Origin: Roseibacterium elongatum DSM 19469
Lineage (GTDB): Bacteria > Pseudomonadota > Alphaproteobacteria > Rhodobacterales > Rhodobacteraceae
Direction of reading: 5' to 3'
Assembly: GCF_000590925.1 (NCBI RefSeq)
Contig: NZ_CP004372.1
Coordinates: forward strand, 2,337,001 to 2,401,000
DNA: 64,000 bases
Of this stretch, positions 298 through 35,357 are shown in pieces (position 1 is the stretch's first letter; each line of letters opens with the position of its first letter). The notes beneath the pieces were generated by a model. It worked only from the letters and a program-made list of their open reading frames with translations. It was not told the origin of the DNA and did not search any database. The translations under genes and the position numbers were made by a program.

Positions 298-808
298 ATG
301 GCCAACTATCCCACGAGTTTCGACAAGGACGACCTACTGGCATGCGCGCGTGGCGAGCTGTTCGGACCCGGCAACGCGCAATTGCCCGAGCCGCCCATGC
401 TGATGATGGACCGGATCACCGACATTTCCGAGGATGGCGGCGCCCATGGCAAGGGGCACGTGGTGGCCGAGTTCGACATCACGCCCGAGCTGTGGTTCTT
501 CGACTGCCATTTCCCGGGCAACCCGATCATGCCCGGCTGCCTGGGGCTTGACGGTCTGTGGCAGCTGACCGGCTTCAACCTGGGCTGGCGCGGCTGGCAG
601 GGGCGGGGCTATGCGCTTGGCGTCGGCGAGGTCAAGCTGACCGGCATGGTGCCGCCCCGACCGCAAGATGCTGACCTATACCGTCGATTTCACCAAGGCC
701 GTGCAGACCCGCCGCCTGACCATGGGTGTGGCCGACGGCCGGGTCGAGGCCGATGGCGAGGTGATCTATCAGGTCAAGGACATGAAGGTCGCGCTGAGCG
801 AAAGCTGA
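298..808 (+). CDS. fabA: 3-hydroxydecanoyl-ACP dehydratase/isomerase FabA (apparent frameshift)
   Basis: FabA dehydrates beta-hydroxyacyl-ACP and isomerises trans-2- to cis-3-decenoyl-ACP, the committing step of unsaturated fatty acid synthesis in the cytosol. The hot-dog fold signature is clear: [29 protein letters not shown] with the catalytic His, and [10 protein letters not shown]. The reading frame breaks near 655-658, where a C run appears one base too long. After removing one C the family C-terminus follows ([13 protein letters not shown] to [11 protein letters not shown], stop 806-808), giving about 169 residues, the normal length. It heads the fabA-fabB-fabI operon. Because fabB and fabI are intact and FabA is normally required, I read the break as a sequence error rather than a pseudogene. 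Confidence 0.9.
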
Positions 809-908: not shown

Positions 909-2138
909 ATGCGCCGCGTCGTCGTCACAGGATTGGGCATCGTCTCGCCCATCGGAAATACCGCCGCCGAGGTGGTGGACAGCCTCAAGGCAGGCCGGTC
1001 CGGCATCGAGGCCAGTGCCGAGATGGCCGAGCACGGCTTTCGCAGCCAGATTGCCGGCACGCTCAAGATCGATCCGTCGGACCATATCGACAAGCGCGCG
1101 TTGCGCTTCATGGGGCCGGGTGCGGCCTATGCCCATATCGCCATGGGGCAGGCCATCGCGGATGCGGGTCTGGACGAGGGCGACATCGTCAATCCGCGCA
1201 CCGGGCTGATCGCGGGCTCGGGCGGGCCGTCGACCAGCGCCATGTTCGCCGCACACCAGACGGTGCTGAAATCGGGCGGGACCAAGCGCATCGGCCCCTT
1301 TGCCGTACCCAAATGCATGAGCAGCACGATTTCCGCCAACCTCGCCACGGCCTACCAGATCAAGGGGATCAACTATTCGATCACCTCGGCCTGTTCGACG
1401 TCCTTGCATTGTATCGGCAACGCGGCCGAGCAGATCATGATGGGCAAACAGGACGTGATGTTCGCCGGCGGCGCCGAGGAACTGGACTGGACGCTGTCCT
1501 GCCTGTTCGACGCGATGGGCGCGATGTCCTCGAAATTCAACGACACGCCGCAGCGCGCCAGCCGCGCCTTCGATGCCGATCGCGACGGGTTCGTGATCGG
1601 GGGCGGCGGCGCGATGCTGGTGCTGGAAGATCTGGAGCACGCGCAGGCGCGCGGCGCGAAAATCTATGCCGAGGTCACCGGCTTTGCCGCCACCTCGGAC
1701 GGGCATGACATGGTCGCGCCCTCGGGCGAGGGGGGGGAGCGCGCGATGCGGCTGGCCCTGCAAACGCTGCCCGAGGGGCGCAAGGTCGATTACATCAACG
1801 CGCACGGCACCTCGACCAAGGTCGGTGACGTGGGCGAGGTCGAGGCCGTGCGCCGCGTCTTTGGCGCAGGATCCACGCCGCCGATTTCCTCGACCAAGTC
1901 GATGACGGGCCATGCGCAGGGGGCGGCCGGCGCGCTGGAGGCGGTGTTCTGCCTGCTGATGCTGGAACATGATTTCATCGCGCCCTCGATCAATGTCGAA
2001 ACGCTGGATCCGGATCTGGATGCGTCCGAGATCGCCACCGCGCTGGTCGAAGGCGCGGGGCTGGATACCGTGATGACGAATTCCTTTGGTTTCGGGGGCA
2101 CGAACGGGTCGATGCTGCTCTCGCGGTTTGACGGATGA
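909..2138 (+). CDS. fabB: Beta-ketoacyl-ACP synthase I FabB
   Basis: FabB elongates acyl-ACP by Claisen condensation with malonyl-ACP and is needed to extend the cis-3-decenoyl-ACP made by FabA. The 409-residue protein has the thiolase fold with the nucleophile in [10 protein letters not shown] (Cys near residue 161) and the two catalytic histidines in [11 protein letters not shown] and [14 protein letters not shown]. The C-terminus [11 protein letters not shown] is typical. A strong GGAGG lies 10 bases before the ATG at 909. It is the second gene of the fab operon; the FabA/FabB pairing favours FabB over FabF. Confidence 0.95.
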
Positions 2139-2144
2139 TGTGAC

Positions 2145-2933
2145 ATGACCGATTTGATGAAGGGCAAGCGCGGCCTTGTGATGGGCGTCGCGAATGAGCG
2201 CTCGATCGCTTGGGGCATCGCCCGCGCGATGGCCGACGAAGGGGCCGAATTGGCGTTTTCCTATCAGGGCGAGGCGTTCGGCAAGCGGGTCGAGCCCCTG
2301 GCCGCGTCCGTCGGCGCAAGCCTGCTGGTCGATGTGGACGTGACCGACGACGCCTCGATGGATGCCGCGTTCGACCGGATCAAGGCGGAATGGGGGACCC
2401 TCGATTTCGTGGTCCATGCCATCGCATATTCCGACAAGGCGGAACTGACGGGGCGCTTCATCAACACCACGCGCGAGAATTTCCGCAATTCGCTGACGAT
2501 CAGCTGTTATTCCTTCATCGACGTGGCCAAGCGCGCCTCGGAGTTGATGCCCGTGGGCGGGTCGATGATCACGCTGACCTACCAGGGGTCGAACCGGGTG
2601 ACGCCGTTCTACAACGTGATGGGCGTGGCCAAGGCGGCGCTCGAAAGCTCGGTGCGCTATCTTGCCAACGACCTCGGGCCGCAGAAGATCCGCGTCAACG
2701 CGATCTCTCCGGGGCCGATGAAGACGCTGGCGGGGGCCGCCATCGGCGGCGCACGCAAGACCTTCAAGACAACCGAGGCCAACGCGCCGCTGCGCGCCAA
2801 CGCGACGCTCGAGGCAGTGGGCGGCACCGCGGTTTATCTGGCGTCCGATTACGGGGCCTGCACCACGGGCGAGATCATCGCGGTCGATGGCGGCTATCAC
2901 GTGCTGGGCATGGCGCAGCCCGAAAACCTGTGA
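2145..2933 (+). CDS. fabI: Enoyl-ACP reductase (NADH) FabI
   Basis: FabI performs the last reduction of the fatty acid elongation cycle. The 262-residue protein is an atypical short-chain dehydrogenase: the N-terminal nucleotide-binding motif is GVANERSIAWGIA rather than the classic GxxxGxG. The catalytic Tyr and Lys are spaced Y-x6-K in FYNVMGVAK, the FabI hallmark. The C-terminal GGYHVLGM also fits. The ATG is six bases after the fabB stop, so translation is probably coupled. Confidence 0.95.
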   Translation: MTDLMKGKRGLVMGVANERSIAWGIARAMADEGAELAFSYQGEAFGKRVEPLAASVGASLLVDVDVTDDASMDAAFDRIKAEWGTLDFVVHAIAYSDKAELTGRFINTTRENFRNSLTISCYSFIDVAKRASELMPVGGSMITLTYQGSNRVTPFYNVMGVAKAALESSVRYLANDLGPQKIRVNAISPGPMKTLAGAAIGGARKTFKTTEANAPLRANATLEAVGGTAVYLASDYGACTTGEIIAVDGGYHVLGMAQPENL

Positions 2934-2952
2934 CGCAGGCCGTTTCGCGCCG

Positions 2953-3628
2953 ATGGATACGCCACAGATCTCCGACCGTCTGAGCGATCAGCCCAACTGG
3001 ATCTACCTGTTGCGCGAGTTCGAGACGCTCTATCGCTACGGCTCGGGCCGGGGGCAGCCCCGCGATCCGCAGTCACCGCAAGAAGGTGCGCGAGGAGTTG
3101 TCGCGGATCATCGCGGCCAATCCGCCGATTACCCCGCGCGCAATCAGCCAAAAGCCGGTCACGGCGCATTTCTCGCGGGCGCTGGACACCGGCGAGCGCG
3201 GCTCGATGCAGGGGATGGCGCGCGCATTGCGCGAACAACGCGACCGGCTGACATGGGAATACGGCTATGACAAGGTGCCGCCGGCGCTGGCCCGGAAATA
3301 CGCCTATTGCGAGATCCTGGGGCCGCGCGGCCCGATCGCGTGGGATCGTCTGATCCTCGGCTTCGTGCTGTTCGCGCCGCGCACCACCTATCCGCAGCAC
3401 AGTCATTCCGAGATCGAGGAAAGCTATATTTCGGTCTCGGGGGCATGGTCGGAAAACAACGCCGCCGTCTATGCACCGGGTTCGTTGATCCTGAACCGCC
3501 CCGGCGACGAGCACCGCATCACCATCGGCGATCAGGAGCCCTGCCTGCTGGCTTATGCCTGGGCGGGGCCGGCGGACAAACTGAGCGATCCCAAGATGAA
3601 ATTCACCGCCGGACGACGTCAGGTTTGA
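2953..3628 (+). CDS. dddL: DMSP lyase, DddL type, cupin fold (apparent frameshift)
   Basis: DddL cleaves dimethylsulfoniopropionate to dimethyl sulfide and acrylate. Features that fit: N-terminus QPNWIYLLREFETLYRYGS, the block IRSHRKKVREELSR, and a C-terminal cupin with HSHSEIEESY (metal-ligand His and Glu plus a catalytic-type Tyr, about residues 149-158), then YAPGSLILNRPGDEHRI and LAYAWAGP. The frame shifts near the G run at 3050-3054; deleting one G joins GSGRGS to PAIRSHRKK and gives about 224 residues, the family length. It starts 20 bases after fabI on the same strand, so it may be cotranscribed with fab genes; no strong ribosome site is visible. The last 10 bases overlap the convergent gene. 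Family assignment is by recognition of motifs, not by a search. Confidence 0.82.
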
Positions 3629-4215
3629 TCGACCCGCCCCTTCAGTGCGGCGCGCTGTGCTTCGACATGGGCCTGAAACCCGCTGTCATCGCCGAAATCG
3701 GCAAAGCCCGTGTACTGATCATGGGGGTCTGCGATGCGGCGGGCATGCTTGATCGGGCACCAATAGGCCTCGGTCCGGGCGGCGATCTCGCGCACATAGC
3801 CGATCAGCCCGTTGCAATAGCCGCAATAGATGCAATTCAGCTTTTGCAAGGCGTTGAGATACTGCAACTGGTGGCGGTCGATCACGATGTACTCGGCCCG
3901 GCGGACTCGCGGGATGCCGTAAACCGGAAAGCAAACCGCCTGATAGACGGTGACGAACAGGTCGAGCAGCACGAAGGGCAGGATCAGCGCGTAGATCACC
4001 GGCGCGGTCAGCAGCACCAGCGGCCGGGCGCGCGACAGAAAGCTGACGAGGTTTTCCCGCGCGGCCCGGTGGCGGGCGCGGATCTCGCCCTCGAACTGAA
4101 CGCGGCGGCCCGCGAAACTGTAGCGAAAGCGCGCGCGGCGCTCTTCGATCTCGTCGAAAAGCTCGCTCTGGGCGGCGCGGATCTGGGCGCGCAGCTTGTC
4201 GATGCGGCTGGTCAT
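3619..4215 (-). CDS. Conserved membrane protein with Cys-rich cytosolic segment, function unknown
   Basis: A 198-residue protein. The first 60 residues are charged and probably helical or coiled (RAAQSELFDEIEERRARF). Two adjacent hydrophobic segments follow (PLVLLTAPVIYALILPFVLLD and LFVTVYQAVCFPVYGIP), then a soluble part containing NCIYCGYCNGLIGYV and YWCPIKHARR. The clustered cysteines C-x2-C-x2-C plus a later Cys could bind metal. I have a general recollection of similar proteins in proteobacteria but know no function. The ATG at 4215 avoids a long, implausible N-terminal extension. It overlaps the end of dddL by 10 bases. Confidence 0.75.
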   Translation of the reverse strand: MTSRIDKLRAQIRAAQSELFDEIEERRARFRYSFAGRRVQFEGEIRARHRAARENLVSFLSRARPLVLLTAPVIYALILPFVLLDLFVTVYQAVCFPVYGIPRVRRAEYIVIDRHQLQYLNALQKLNCIYCGYCNGLIGYVREIAARTEAYWCPIKHARRIADPHDQYTGFADFGDDSGFQAHVEAQRAALKGRVDQT

Positions 4216-4330
4216 GGGGCAGTCCTCGTGGCGGTTGCCGATGGGGAAAGCCAAGCACGCAATTGGGGGCTGCGCAATGACACGGCGCATGGCGCTGGCA
4301 TGGCGGGGCAGGGGGTGATAGCGCGGTATC

Positions 4331-4788: not shown

Positions 4789-5217
4789 TTAGGCGACCTT
4801 GACCAGCTCGACGGCAAAGGTCAGGTCCTTGCCCGCCAGCGGGTGGTTGGCATCCAACGTCACCGTCTCGTCGGTCACCTCGGCCACGGTCACGGGCAGG
4901 GTCTGGCCCTCGGGCGTCTGCACCTGCAACTGGGTCCCCAGATCCAGCGGGATGTGATCGGGCACCGCCTCGCGCGGGACCTGCTGGATGGCCTCGGGGC
5001 GATGGGCGCCATAGGCCTCGTCGGCGGGGATGGTGACGGTTTTGCTCTCGCCTTCGGACATGCCCGACAGCGCGTTTTCCAGACCGGGGATGATCTGGCC
5101 TTCGCCCATCTGGAAGGTCAGCGGGTCGCGCCCCTCCGAACTGTCGAAGGTGGTGCCGTCCGCAAGGGTGCCGGTGTAGTGGATGGACACGGTGGTGCCC
5201 GGCTTGGCCTGGGTCAT
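4789..5217 (-). CDS. FKBP-type peptidyl-prolyl isomerase, SlyD-like
   Basis: Cis/trans prolyl isomerase with probable chaperone activity. The 142-residue protein opens with the FKBP motifs VSIHYTGTLADGTTFDSS and PLTFQMGEGQIIPGLENAL. It then carries the inserted-flap region (ADEAYGAHRPEAIQQVPREAVP) characteristic of SlyD/FkpB-type enzymes, and ends LTFAVELVKV. It lacks the His-rich tail of E. coli SlyD. The ATG at 5217 has AGAGAG about 6 bases upstream. It is divergent from the haloacid dehalogenase gene. Confidence 0.88.
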   Translation of the reverse strand: MTQAKPGTTVSIHYTGTLADGTTFDSSEGRDPLTFQMGEGQIIPGLENALSGMSEGESKTVTIPADEAYGAHRPEAIQQVPREAVPDHIPLDLGTQLQVQTPEGQTLPVTVAEVTDETVTLDANHPLAGKDLTFAVELVKVA

Positions 5218-5399
5218 GACGATCTCTCTGTTTTGGGAATGTGTGAATTTCGCAGGGCCGCGCCGTGGGCGCAGGGCTGTTGCGTTGGCTCGACACAAAT
5301 CTAGGAGGTCCGGGACCGTATTGAAACCCCCCGCGCGGCCGATTGTCGGGGCCGCCGCCCTGTGCCACTGTGGCCACGACATGGAAAAAAGGGGTGATC

Positions 5400-29653: not shown

Positions 29654-32468
29654 ATGGCATTCGGCAAGGGACATCACCTGCACCTGGTGGACGGATCGGC
29701 CTTCATCTTTCGGGCCTATCACGCGCTGCCGCCACTGACGCGGAAATCCGACGGGCTGCCCATCGGGGCGGTGTCGGGGTTTTGCAACATGATCCACAAG
29801 ATGATCGAGGCCAATACCGGCCCCGATGCGCCGACCCATGCGGCTGTGATCTTCGACAAGGGCAGTCATACGTTCCGCAATGACCTCTATGACCAATACA
29901 AGGCCAATCGCGACGCCATGCCCGAGGATCTGCGCCCGCAGATCCCGCTGACGCGCGAGGCGACGCGGGCCTTCAACCTGGCCTGTATCGAGCTGGAGGG
30001 GTTCGAGGCCGATGACATCATCGCCACGCTGGCCCGCCAGGCGCGCGAGGCGGGCGGGCGCGTCACCATCATTTCGTCGGACAAGGACCTGATGCAGCTG
30101 GTCGGCGGCGGGGTCGAGATGTTCGACGCGATGAAGAACACCCGCATCGATGCCGAGGGGGTCGAAGCCAAGTTCGGGGTGGGCCCCGATCGCGTGATCG
30201 ACGTGCAGGCCTTGGCCGGCGACAGCGTCGACAACATTCCCGGCGCGCCGGGGATCGGGATCAAGACCGCCGCGCTGTTGATCAACGAATATGGCGATCT
30301 GGAAACGCTTCTGGACAGTGCCGAGCAGATCAAGCAGCCCAAGCGCCGCCAGACGCTGATCGAGAAGCGCGCGCAGATCGAGCTATCGAAGAAACTCGTC
30401 ACGCTGGATGACCAGGTGCCCTTGGACGAGAGCCTCGACGATCTGGAGGTGCGCGAGCCCGAGGCGGACAAGCTGTTGGAGTTCCTGTCGCAGATGGAGT
30501 TCCGCACGCTGACCCGCCGCATCGCCGAGGAGATGGGCGTCGCGCCGCCGACCATCCCCGACACCGATCCGGGCGGGGCGGCCTCGGGCGAGGAGGCCGA
30601 AAGCGCGCCCGAGTTTCCACCGATCAAGCCCGAGGACTACGAGATCGTCCGCGACGCGGCGGCCCTGCAGAGATGGATCGACGCCGCCCATGCGCGCGGC
30701 TCGGTGGCGTTCGACACGGAGACGACCTCGCTGAATGAAATGCGGGCGGAATTGGTGGGTGTCTCGCTGGCCGTGGCGCCGGGGAAGGCCTGCTACATCC
30801 CGTTGCAGCATCGCGGCGGCGGGGCGGGCGGGGACCTGTTCTCGGACGACGCGCTGGCCGAGGGGCAGATGGCGCTGGACGTGGCGTTGGAGATGCTGAA
30901 ACCGCTGCTTGAGGACGACGCGGTGATGAAGCTGGCGCAGAACGCCAAGTATGACGTCAAGGTGCTGGCCCGCTACGGCATCGACGTCGCGCCCATCGAC
31001 GACACGATGCTGATGTCCTATGCGATGAACGCCGGGTTGCATGGGCATGGGATGGACACGCTGGCCGAGCGCTACCTGTCGCATCACTGCATCCCGATCA
31101 AGGATCTGATCGGCTCGGGCAAATCGGCCATCACCTTCGACCGGGTCGAGATCGACAAGGCTGCGCCTTATGCCGCCGAGGATGCGGATGTGACGCTGCG
31201 CCTAGGCCTGCTGTTCAAGCCGCAGCTGCACCGTGCGCAGGTGACGACGGTTTACGAGACGCTGGAGCGCCCGCTGGTGCCGGTTCTGGCGCGGATGGAG
31301 CGGGCGGGCATCAAGGTGGATCGCGATACGCTGTCGCGCATGTCCAACGCGTTCTCGCAGAAGATGGCCGCGCTGGAGGATGAGATCCACGCGTTGGCGG
31401 GCGAGACATTCAATGTCGGCTCGCCCGCGCAACTGGGCGAGATCCTGTTCGAGAAGATGGGCCTTGAAGGCGGCAAGAAGGGCAAGACCGGCAAGTATTC
31501 CACGCCGGCGGATGTGCTGGAGGATCTGGCGACCGAGCATGATCTGCCCGCGCGCGTGCTGGACTGGCGGCAGATGTCGAAACTGAAATCGACCTATACC
31601 GACGCATTGCAGGACCACATCAACCCGGACACGGGGCGGGTGCATACCTCGTATTCGATCGCCGGGGCGAATACGGGGCGGCTGGCCTCGACCGATCCGA
31701 ACCTGCAGAACATTCCCGTGCGCTCGGACGAAGGGCGGCGCATTCGCGAGGCTTTCGTGGCCGAGACGGGCAAAGTGCTGGTTTCGCTCGATTATTCTCA
31801 GATCGAGCTGCGCATCCTGGCGCATATCGCGGGGATCGACGCGCTGAAGCAGGCCTTCCGCGAGGGGCAGGACATTCACGCCGCGACCGCGTCCGAGATG
31901 TTCGGCGTGCCGCTGGACCAGATGACGCCGGATGTGCGGCGGCAGGCCAAGGCGATCAATTTCGGCGTGATCTACGGGATTTCCGGCTTCGGCCTTGCGC
32001 GCAACCTGCGCATCCCGCGCGCCGAGGCGCAGGGATTCATCGACCGCTATTTCGAACGCTTCCCCGGCATCAAGGATTACATGGACGCGACCAAGGGCTT
32101 CGCGAAGGAGCACAAGTTCGTGCAGACGCTCTTTGGCCGCAAGATCAACACGCCCGAGATCGGGGCCAAGGGGCCGACCGCGGGCTTTGCCGCGCGGGCC
32201 GCGATCAACGCGCCGATCCAGGGGACGGCCGCCGACATCATCCGCCGTGCCATGGTCCGGATGGAGGCCGCCATCGCTGATCTGCCCGCGACCATGCTGT
32301 TGCAGGTGCATGACGAATTGATCTTCGAGGTAGACGAGGGGGCCGTGGACTAGCCTGATCGACCGCGCCCGCGAGGTGATGGAGGGGGCGGCGCACCCGG
32401 CGGTGCATCTGGATGTGCCGCTGGTGGTCGATGCGGGGCAGGGGGCAAACTGGGCCGAGGCGCATTGA
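29654..32468 (+). CDS. polA: DNA polymerase I (apparent frameshift near the C-terminus)
   Basis: Repair and Okazaki-fragment polymerase, about 937 residues. Order: 5'-3' exonuclease (LVDGSAFIFRAYHALPP, GFEADDIIATLA, GDSVDNIPGAPGIGIKTA), 3'-5' exonuclease with intact DxE (SVAFDTETTSL), then polymerase motifs A (LVSLDYSQIELRILAHI), B (RRQAKAINFGVIYG) and C (LLQVHDELIFEV). An extra T at 32351 creates a premature TAG. Removing it gives SLIDRAREVMEGAAHP and the natural stop at 32466-32468. The change is not in a homopolymer. The lost tail is about 40 residues, so loss of function cannot be excluded if real. Confidence 0.94.
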
Positions 32469-34008: not shown

Positions 34009-35357
34009 TCAGGCCAACATGACCATGGGGTTCTCGAGGTTGTCCACGATTTGTTGCAGCAATTCCGCCCCGAGCGCACCGTCGATCACCCGGTGATCGA
34101 CCGAGAGCGTCACCGACATGACGGTGGCCACGGCCAGTTCGCCATCGGCGCCGACGACGGGTTTCTTCACGCCCGCGCCGACGGCCAGGATCGCGCCATG
34201 CGGCGGGTTGATGACCGCATCGAAATTGTCGATGCCGAACATGCCGAGATTCGAGATCGCGAAGGCGCCGCCGACATATTCATGGGGGGCCAGCTTGCGG
34301 TCGCGGGCACGGGTGGCGAGATCCTTCATCTCGGCCGAAAGGGCAGAGAGCGATTTCATCTCGGCATCCTTCAGAACCGGGGTGAAGAGGCCGCCATCGA
34401 CGGCGACGGCCACGGCCACGTCCGGGGTTTCAGGCGCAGCATCCGGTCGCCGGCCCAGACGGCATTGGCCGCCGGAACAGCCTGAAGCGCCAGGGCACAG
34501 GCCTTGATGATGAAGTCGTTGACCGACAGCTTCACGCCGCGCCCTTCCAGCTGCTTGTTGAGCTGGCTGCGGAAGGCCAAGAGCGCGTCGAGCTTGATGT
34601 CGCGGCGCAGGTAGAAATGCGGGATGGTCTGCTTGGCCTCGGTCAGGCGGGCGGCGACGGTGCGGCGCATGCCGTCGAGCTTGACCTCTTCGAACGCGCG
34701 GCCCTCGTACATCTTGATGACCTGCGCGGCATCGGGGCCTGCGGGCATGGCGGCGGGGGCGGGTTTCGATGCCGCGGCCGGAGCCTCGGACGCGGCGGCT
34801 GGGGCTGCGGCAGCAGGGGCCGCGCCGGGCTGGGCGGCCTCGACATCGGCCTTGACGATGCGCCCGCGCGGACCGGTGCCCTTGATCTGAGCGAGGTCGA
34901 GCCCCTTGTCGGCGGCGATGCGGCGCGCCAGCGGCGAGGCGAAGATGCGGCTGCCGTCACCGCCCGTGGGCGCGGCGGGCGCCGGGGTGGCGGCGGCGGC
35001 GACGGGCGCGGGCGCGTCGGAGCCGCCAGGGGCGGCCGCCTCCTTGCCCGCGTCGGACGCCTGCGGCGCCGACGGTGCGGGGCCCCCGGCGGTGCCGATA
35101 TCCTCGGCGCTTTCGCCATCTTCTAGAAGAACGGCGATGGGGCTGTTCACCTTCACGCCCTCGGTGCCTTCGGCGATGAGGATCTTGCCGATGGTGCCTT
35201 CGTCCACGGCCTCGAATTCCATCGTGGCCTTGTCAGTCTCGATCTCGGCCAGGATGTCGCCGGAATTGACGGTGTCGCCCTCTTTCACCAGCCATTTGGC
35301 AAGCGTGCCTTCCTCCATCGTGGGCGAGAGCGCGGGCATCAGGATCTCTGTGGGCAT
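34009..35357 (-). CDS. pdhC: Pyruvate dehydrogenase E2, dihydrolipoamide acetyltransferase (apparent frameshift)
   Basis: E2 core of the pyruvate dehydrogenase complex. One lipoyl domain ([17 protein letters not shown], lipoyl Lys near 44) is followed by an Ala/Pro linker, the E1/E3-binding domain ([34 protein letters not shown]) and the acetyltransferase domain with [14 protein letters not shown]. The frame breaks near the G run at 34424-34427, apparently one base short; corrected length is about 449 residues. It starts 12 bases after pdhB. Confidence 0.92.

Follow-up and report, generated by a model that had tools for sequence, protein, structure and literature searches.

Dimethyl sulfide is released by DMSP lyases, whose genes are counted in genome surveys to predict which organisms can make the gas. 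Six residues of the cupin lyase DddQ (Y120, H123, H125, E129, Y131 and H163) are reported to be essential in that enzyme by PMC4437653 (2015), and the same paper lists a DddL of Roseibacterium elongatum DSM 19469 as roselon_02436 and uses its cupin region in an alignment. The DMSP cleavage reaction is described as a beta-elimination in PMC5395565. With respect to gene organization, PMC3017554 (2011) describes dddL as a one-gene unit in all species then known except R. sphaeroides. Here we report on the dddL locus found in 64,000 nucleotides of the R. elongatum genome (contig NZ_CP004372.1, positions 2,337,001 to 2,401,000), a stretch referred to throughout as the window. Judged by its sequence, the gene at 2953-3628 is an ordinary DddL-type DMSP lyase gene that is already in the literature. 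Its deposited reading frame is broken, and we put the probability that the gene encodes DddL and that the break is a sequence error, taken together, at about 0.82.

Identity of the encoded protein

The original prediction of a DddL-type lyase in this position rested on a block, IRSHRKKVREELSR, and a cupin motif, HSHSEIEESY, both of which are encoded in the gene (3065-3106 and 3398-3427, respectively; Table 1). Profile and homologue searches bear out the assignment. The 190-aa translation of the body of the gene (P0001) matches the Pfam DMSP_lyase model PF16867 at 148.9 bits (E = 1.3e-43, curated cut-off 27), a model whose name alone does not split DddL from other cupin DMSP lyases, and a search of NCBIfam with the same protein returned no family at E <= 0.1. 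The closest named relatives are DddL and not DddQ, chains of which reach E 4.1e-6 at best, in a comparison that took in DddL- and DddQ-named sequences. A search of 5.8 billion proteins yielded 1276 candidates, 860 of them homologues at E <= 0.001, and the figures on identity and names given here refer to the best 120 of those 860. These 120 are 91-68% identical to P0001, the nearest relative of the window gene being 91% identical (L003). Two of the best nine (91-79% identical) carry names, DMSP lyase family protein and dimethylpropiothetin dethiomethylase, and four others (P0026, P0061, P0090 and P0120, at 72-75% identity) are called DddL by their source. Five rows of about 30% identity sit outside on long branches in a tree of 60 rows. 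Because the whole genome (3,555,109 bases) holds a single match to PF16867, roselon_02436 is almost certainly the window gene. A DddL of this strain was already known, and the frame break discussed below bears on whether the copy works, not on the family to which it belongs.

The cupin residues of P0001 given in Table 1 are invariant in all 121 rows of an alignment made up of P0001 and its best 120 homologues, and they match the essential DddQ set in an alignment to DddQ 4la2. An AlphaFold model of P0001 built from 41 sequences is of moderate quality (mean pLDDT 67.8, pTM 0.66). Its six best fold matches in the PDB are DMSP lyase entries, namely five of DddQ and 4b29, the title of which names RdDddP and RnDddQII (E 1.5e-8 to 4.5e-8, TM 0.52-0.58, rmsd 3.3-9.7). 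Weak matches, under the cut-off in each case, to the models ChrR Cupin-like and Cupin_2 might be taken to mean that the protein is a cupin with some other activity. We consider this very improbable given a PF16867 score far above its cut-off, an invariant DddQ-type set of Y, H, H, E, Y and H, fold matches that are best to DMSP lyases, and the statement in PMC3017554 that all dddL strains tested by then produced dimethyl sulfide. From the family and the published work we infer the metal and the reaction: the product would be a cupin metalloenzyme in which the metal is bound by two His and the Glu of motif 1 together with the motif 2 His, two Tyr also participate, and it would convert DMSP to dimethyl sulfide, acrylate and a proton by the proposed beta-elimination.

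Table 1. Features of the fab-dddL region, in window coordinates
Feature	Position	Strand	Remarks
fabA, frame-broken near 652	298..805	+	two overlapping TIGR01749 pieces, each in its own frame
fabB (presumed)	909..2138	+	409-aa ORF; 97% identical in L039, same place
fabI, enoyl-ACP reductase	2145..2933	+	PF13561 291.2 bits; NCBIfam FabI models reach 391.9 bits at most, below curated cut-offs
dddL, whole gene	2953-3628	+	ATG at 2953; stop codon 3626-3628
dddL N-terminal part, ATG frame	2953..3045, end approximate	+	aligns with N-terminal parts of intact relatives (e.g. P0002) at protein and DNA level
frame-break zone of dddL	3043..3056	+	net one base longer than L003 and L004
dddL body, second frame, cupin domain and stop	3056..3628	+	PF16867 match; P0001; 91% identity to L003
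cupin motif 1	3389..3427	+	P0001 Y112, H115, H117, E122, Y124 = DddQ Y120, H123, H125, E129, Y131
cupin motif 2 histidine	3512..3514	+	P0001 H153 = DddQ H163
convergent gene	3619..4215, start chosen (searched as 3619-4230)	-	overlaps dddL end by 10 bases; 79% identical in L003

The interrupted reading frame

The original prediction also noted a frameshift, and the deposited gene indeed has no continuous full-length reading frame. The frame opened by the ATG encodes MDTPQISDRLSDQPNWIYLLREFETLYRYGS, and the remaining protein is read from about 3056 in another frame; relative to L003 and L004 in a DNA alignment, and also to the genome G003, the window has one extra base within about 3043-3056. 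One continuous frame is present in 37 of the 39 named dddL loci, and programmed frameshifting was rejected on this ground. The two exceptions are the records of a Roseovarius MAG (L074), with a stop inside the match (383-943), and of Jannaschia seohaensis (L077), with the match in two frames around 5176-5228, and they indicate that such breaks may also be real. Among 147 genomes searched, our own included, 18 relatives carry a dddL of at least 49% identity, and every one of these has an open frame of at least 225 aa with no internal stop. The dN/dS ratio against L039 is 0.10 after the break and 0.05 before it (66 bases, few sites), as compared with 0.08 for fabI and 0.04 for fabB; the two genes downstream have ratios of 0.27 and 0.41. 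From these ratios, both parts of dddL have been under protein-level selection until very recently, and a very recent true frameshift would give the same low values.

A shorter protein of 180 aa, started from the GTG at 3086, might in principle be the working product, with the upstream part dispensable. This ORF is open and includes the whole cupin part, and a gene finder would probably annotate it. However, the protein would be without I4, R5 and H7 of P0001, residues that are as invariant (121/121 rows) as the active-site set, and relatives share a conserved upstream part, with the low dN/dS noted above for that short stretch. There is thus very little chance that the shorter form is what the strain relies on.

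The original view that the break decides whether the strain can make dimethyl sulfide is weakly supported. The break itself stands in the deposited sequence, but a sequence error is favored over a true loss because similar breaks occur in the sole fabA of the genome, in polA and in the gene for the E2 subunit of a 2-oxoacid dehydrogenase. Neither piece of the fabA match to TIGR01749 is above cut-off, the model matches nowhere else in the genome, and the fabA of L039, L041 and L042 has an unbroken frame. C18:1 makes up 68% of the fatty acids of the strain (PMC4149021), and such a high content of unsaturated fatty acid makes a functional FabA probable, with the caveat that the strain may produce C18:1 by a FabA-independent route. 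The breaks in polA (about 32340-32350) and in the E2 gene (34425-34494), both seen by comparison with G003, are likely to be further sequence errors.

To look beyond single genes, 84 kb of the R. elongatum genome were compared with 100 kb of G003 in a frame-split scan of all open frames of at least 100 aa. The scan gave 17 rows from reference to own genome versus 5 in the reverse direction, rows that include antisense shadows, several per site, and so do not equal a count of genes. Among the split sites are polA (last 42 residues), the genes for the 2-oxoacid dehydrogenase E2 acyltransferase, PqiA, a DUF808 protein and a member of the carboxymuconolactone decarboxylase family, and, left of the window, that for a GTA phage-tail-like protein. 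A gene-filtered version of the test, which did not report fabA or dddL, found splits in 6 of the 54 reference genes with a match (57 tested) and, in the opposite direction, in 6 of 56 (58 genes tested), numbers that show no contrast and count against the sequence-error argument. The two sets nevertheless differ in their nature: in all six reverse cases the second match falls where a stop-to-stop frame begins (five of them at 63-78% identity), a place where a non-coding extension is expected, whereas five of the six forward splits lie inside the protein or at its end. Most breaks are polarised against G003 alone, but at least three relatives were used for those of fabA and dddL. fabA, dddL, polA, E2 and PqiA each differ by one base in net length. 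For DUF808, CMD, MFS and alanine racemase the difference is not a single base, which makes these splits less certain as errors, and for alanine racemase the fault may be the relative's since the window frame is the longer one. Gap counting on blastn alignments was dropped in favor of this protein-versus-DNA comparison, many compensating gap pairs having appeared within intact genes. The split in the phage-tail-like protein of GTA type (GTA_TIM and Rcc01698_C in the relative) falls at about 12945 of L037, some 7 kb left of the window, where there may be a gene transfer agent cluster.

These observations have to be weighed against the possibility that the break is real and recent, that is, that the type strain lost dddL function by a one-base length change. 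The genome is called finished, at 93x coverage (PMC4149021), a recent event would leave dN/dS low, none of the length changes at the break sites lies within a long homopolymer, and two of the 39 other named loci are likewise not continuous. On the other hand, the small breaks in the sole fabA match, polA and the E2 gene would then have to be real too, and the 17 rows of the own genome against 5 of the relative point away from a true loss, a difference that levels out at 6 against 6 in the stricter test. The assembly itself merged Velvet and Newbler contigs that had been cut into artificial reads (PMC4149021). We therefore regard a true loss as unlikely, if still worth serious consideration. 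The dddL break is most likely, though it is not proven to be, an error in the deposited assembly, and the gene of the living strain is probably intact. A survey that trusts the deposited sequence would either list the strain as having a broken gene or call the short protein, and since this type of break also touches housekeeping genes, the record needs to be used with care.

Gene neighborhood of dddL

As originally proposed, dddL lies directly behind fatty acid genes. Their order is fabA-fabB-fabI, and 19 bases separate the end of the fabI stop codon from the ATG of dddL. The ORF between fabA and fabI we take to be fabB, encoding beta-ketoacyl-ACP synthase. The convergent gene, for which Pfam gave no match at E <= 0.1, closes what is possibly a fab-dddL unit. 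Among the 39 named loci, all of which contain a close dddL, four (L039-L042) repeat the fabB-fabI-dddL order. In the flanks of the other 35, fab queries found no match, the flanks being shortened at six of the 39. The window gene and those of L039-L042 form one group in the tree of 60 rows with support of 100/99, the bootstrap being not quite settled. The distance from fabI stop to dddL start varies within this group: it is 27 or 45 bases in L039, 34 in L040, 38 in L041 and 568 in L042. Approached from the fabI side, with 41 genomes searched and 1.5-kb flanks, dddL follows fabI in three of 30 fabI loci (our own, G003 and G004). By gene order the fabI-dddL linkage is thus real and limited to one small clade. 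In G001 and G002, which belong to the same genus, dddL is absent behind fabI; a copy 49-51% identical to that of the window is found instead on another contig, and these copies (L020 and L018) form a separate, strongly supported branch. One record deserves a comment: L039 (NZ_JAHVKE010000001.1) is titled Maritalea mobilis, a name that looks wrong, as G003:C1, a contig of equal length, counts as the window's genus and is collinear with the R. elongatum genome, with a DNA identity of 84-88% in most long blocks.

A homologue of the convergent gene adjoins fabI in G014 and G016, an arrangement suggestive of an insertion of dddL between the two. We infer that this insertion goes back to the common ancestor of a single small clade (Roseicyclus/Roseibacterium); dddL may now be transcribed either by read-through from the fab genes or from a promoter of its own. 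One possibility is that dddL has joined the fabA-fabB-fabI unit, such that DMSP cleavage would track membrane lipid synthesis and not DMSP or acrylate, but we hold this idea to be tentative and rather doubtful. Scans of little power for this organism were negative both for promoter-like sites, across 2100-3700, and for terminator-like sites in the fabI-dddL interval, and the missing signals would be weak support for a joint transcript. The 568-base gap in L042 speaks against a strictly conserved coupling. In the portions available of the literature on dddL with fabI, PMC4029986 included, the arrangement does not appear.

What was also called unusual in the original prediction, namely that dddL stands apart from DMSP transporter and acrylate genes, turned out to be the rule. 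Queries for dmdA, acuI and BCCT taken from the own genome found no match at E <= 1e-3 in the flanks of any of the 39 named loci, and positive controls were found. A further set of 29 loci with 1.5-kb flanks, 18 of which hold a dddL of at least 49% identity and two of which are on the same contigs as L039 and L042, gave a full acuI match close to dddL at two loci, L008 and L019, and at L015 a piece of 35 residues. Because of the flanks of the 39 loci and the one-gene units described in PMC3017554, a dddL without DMSP or acrylate neighbors is to be considered normal, and the distinctive part of the locus is its fabI neighbor.

Pathway context and known systems

Acrylate released by DddL would then be handled by AcuI, which is encoded beside dmdA about 305 kb away. 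The two genes are adjacent at 2645-2647 kb of the genome, with scores of 654.5 bits for DmdA (cut-off 410) and 445.1 bits for AcuI (cut-off 440), and the genome has one BCCT-type transporter. Genes for demethylation and acrylyl-CoA reduction are thus present, which fits with a working lyase. A second DmdA-like protein, encoded at 1396-2514 of L099 (~649 kb of the genome), scores 368.6 bits, below the cut-off of 410, and is accompanied there by a convergent gene resembling medium-chain reductases (a weak acuI match). DMSP is not mentioned in the main text of PMC4149021, the genome paper of the strain, and the accessible part of PMC11837527, on Roseicyclus and DMSP, contains no ddd gene name.

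Among known systems, DddQ (PDB 4la2, 5jso and 5cu1) shares the cupin fold and matching active-site residues with the window protein, but the two are only about 19-22% identical in fold alignments and DddQ is treated in print as a separate lyase. The DddL of Sulfitobacter sp. EE-36 and of other roseobacters belongs to the same family and carries out the reaction expected of the window gene (PMC10686828, PMC3017554). In those organisms, however, dddL is described as a one-gene transcriptional unit (PMC3017554), whereas that of the window lies behind fabI. R. sphaeroides 2.4.1 offers a further comparison: its DddL is of the same enzyme family, and in both organisms dddL ends a run of genes on the same strand. 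The R. sphaeroides gene follows acuR-acuI and responds to acrylate (PMC3017554), while the dddL of R. elongatum follows fabI and is far from acuI. The placement behind fabI is a small, testable case of lyase genes possibly coming under new promoters, and, if dddL has truly joined the fab genes, R. elongatum would add a further example, besides the acuR-acuI-dddL genes of R. sphaeroides, in which dddL became part of an operon already in place.
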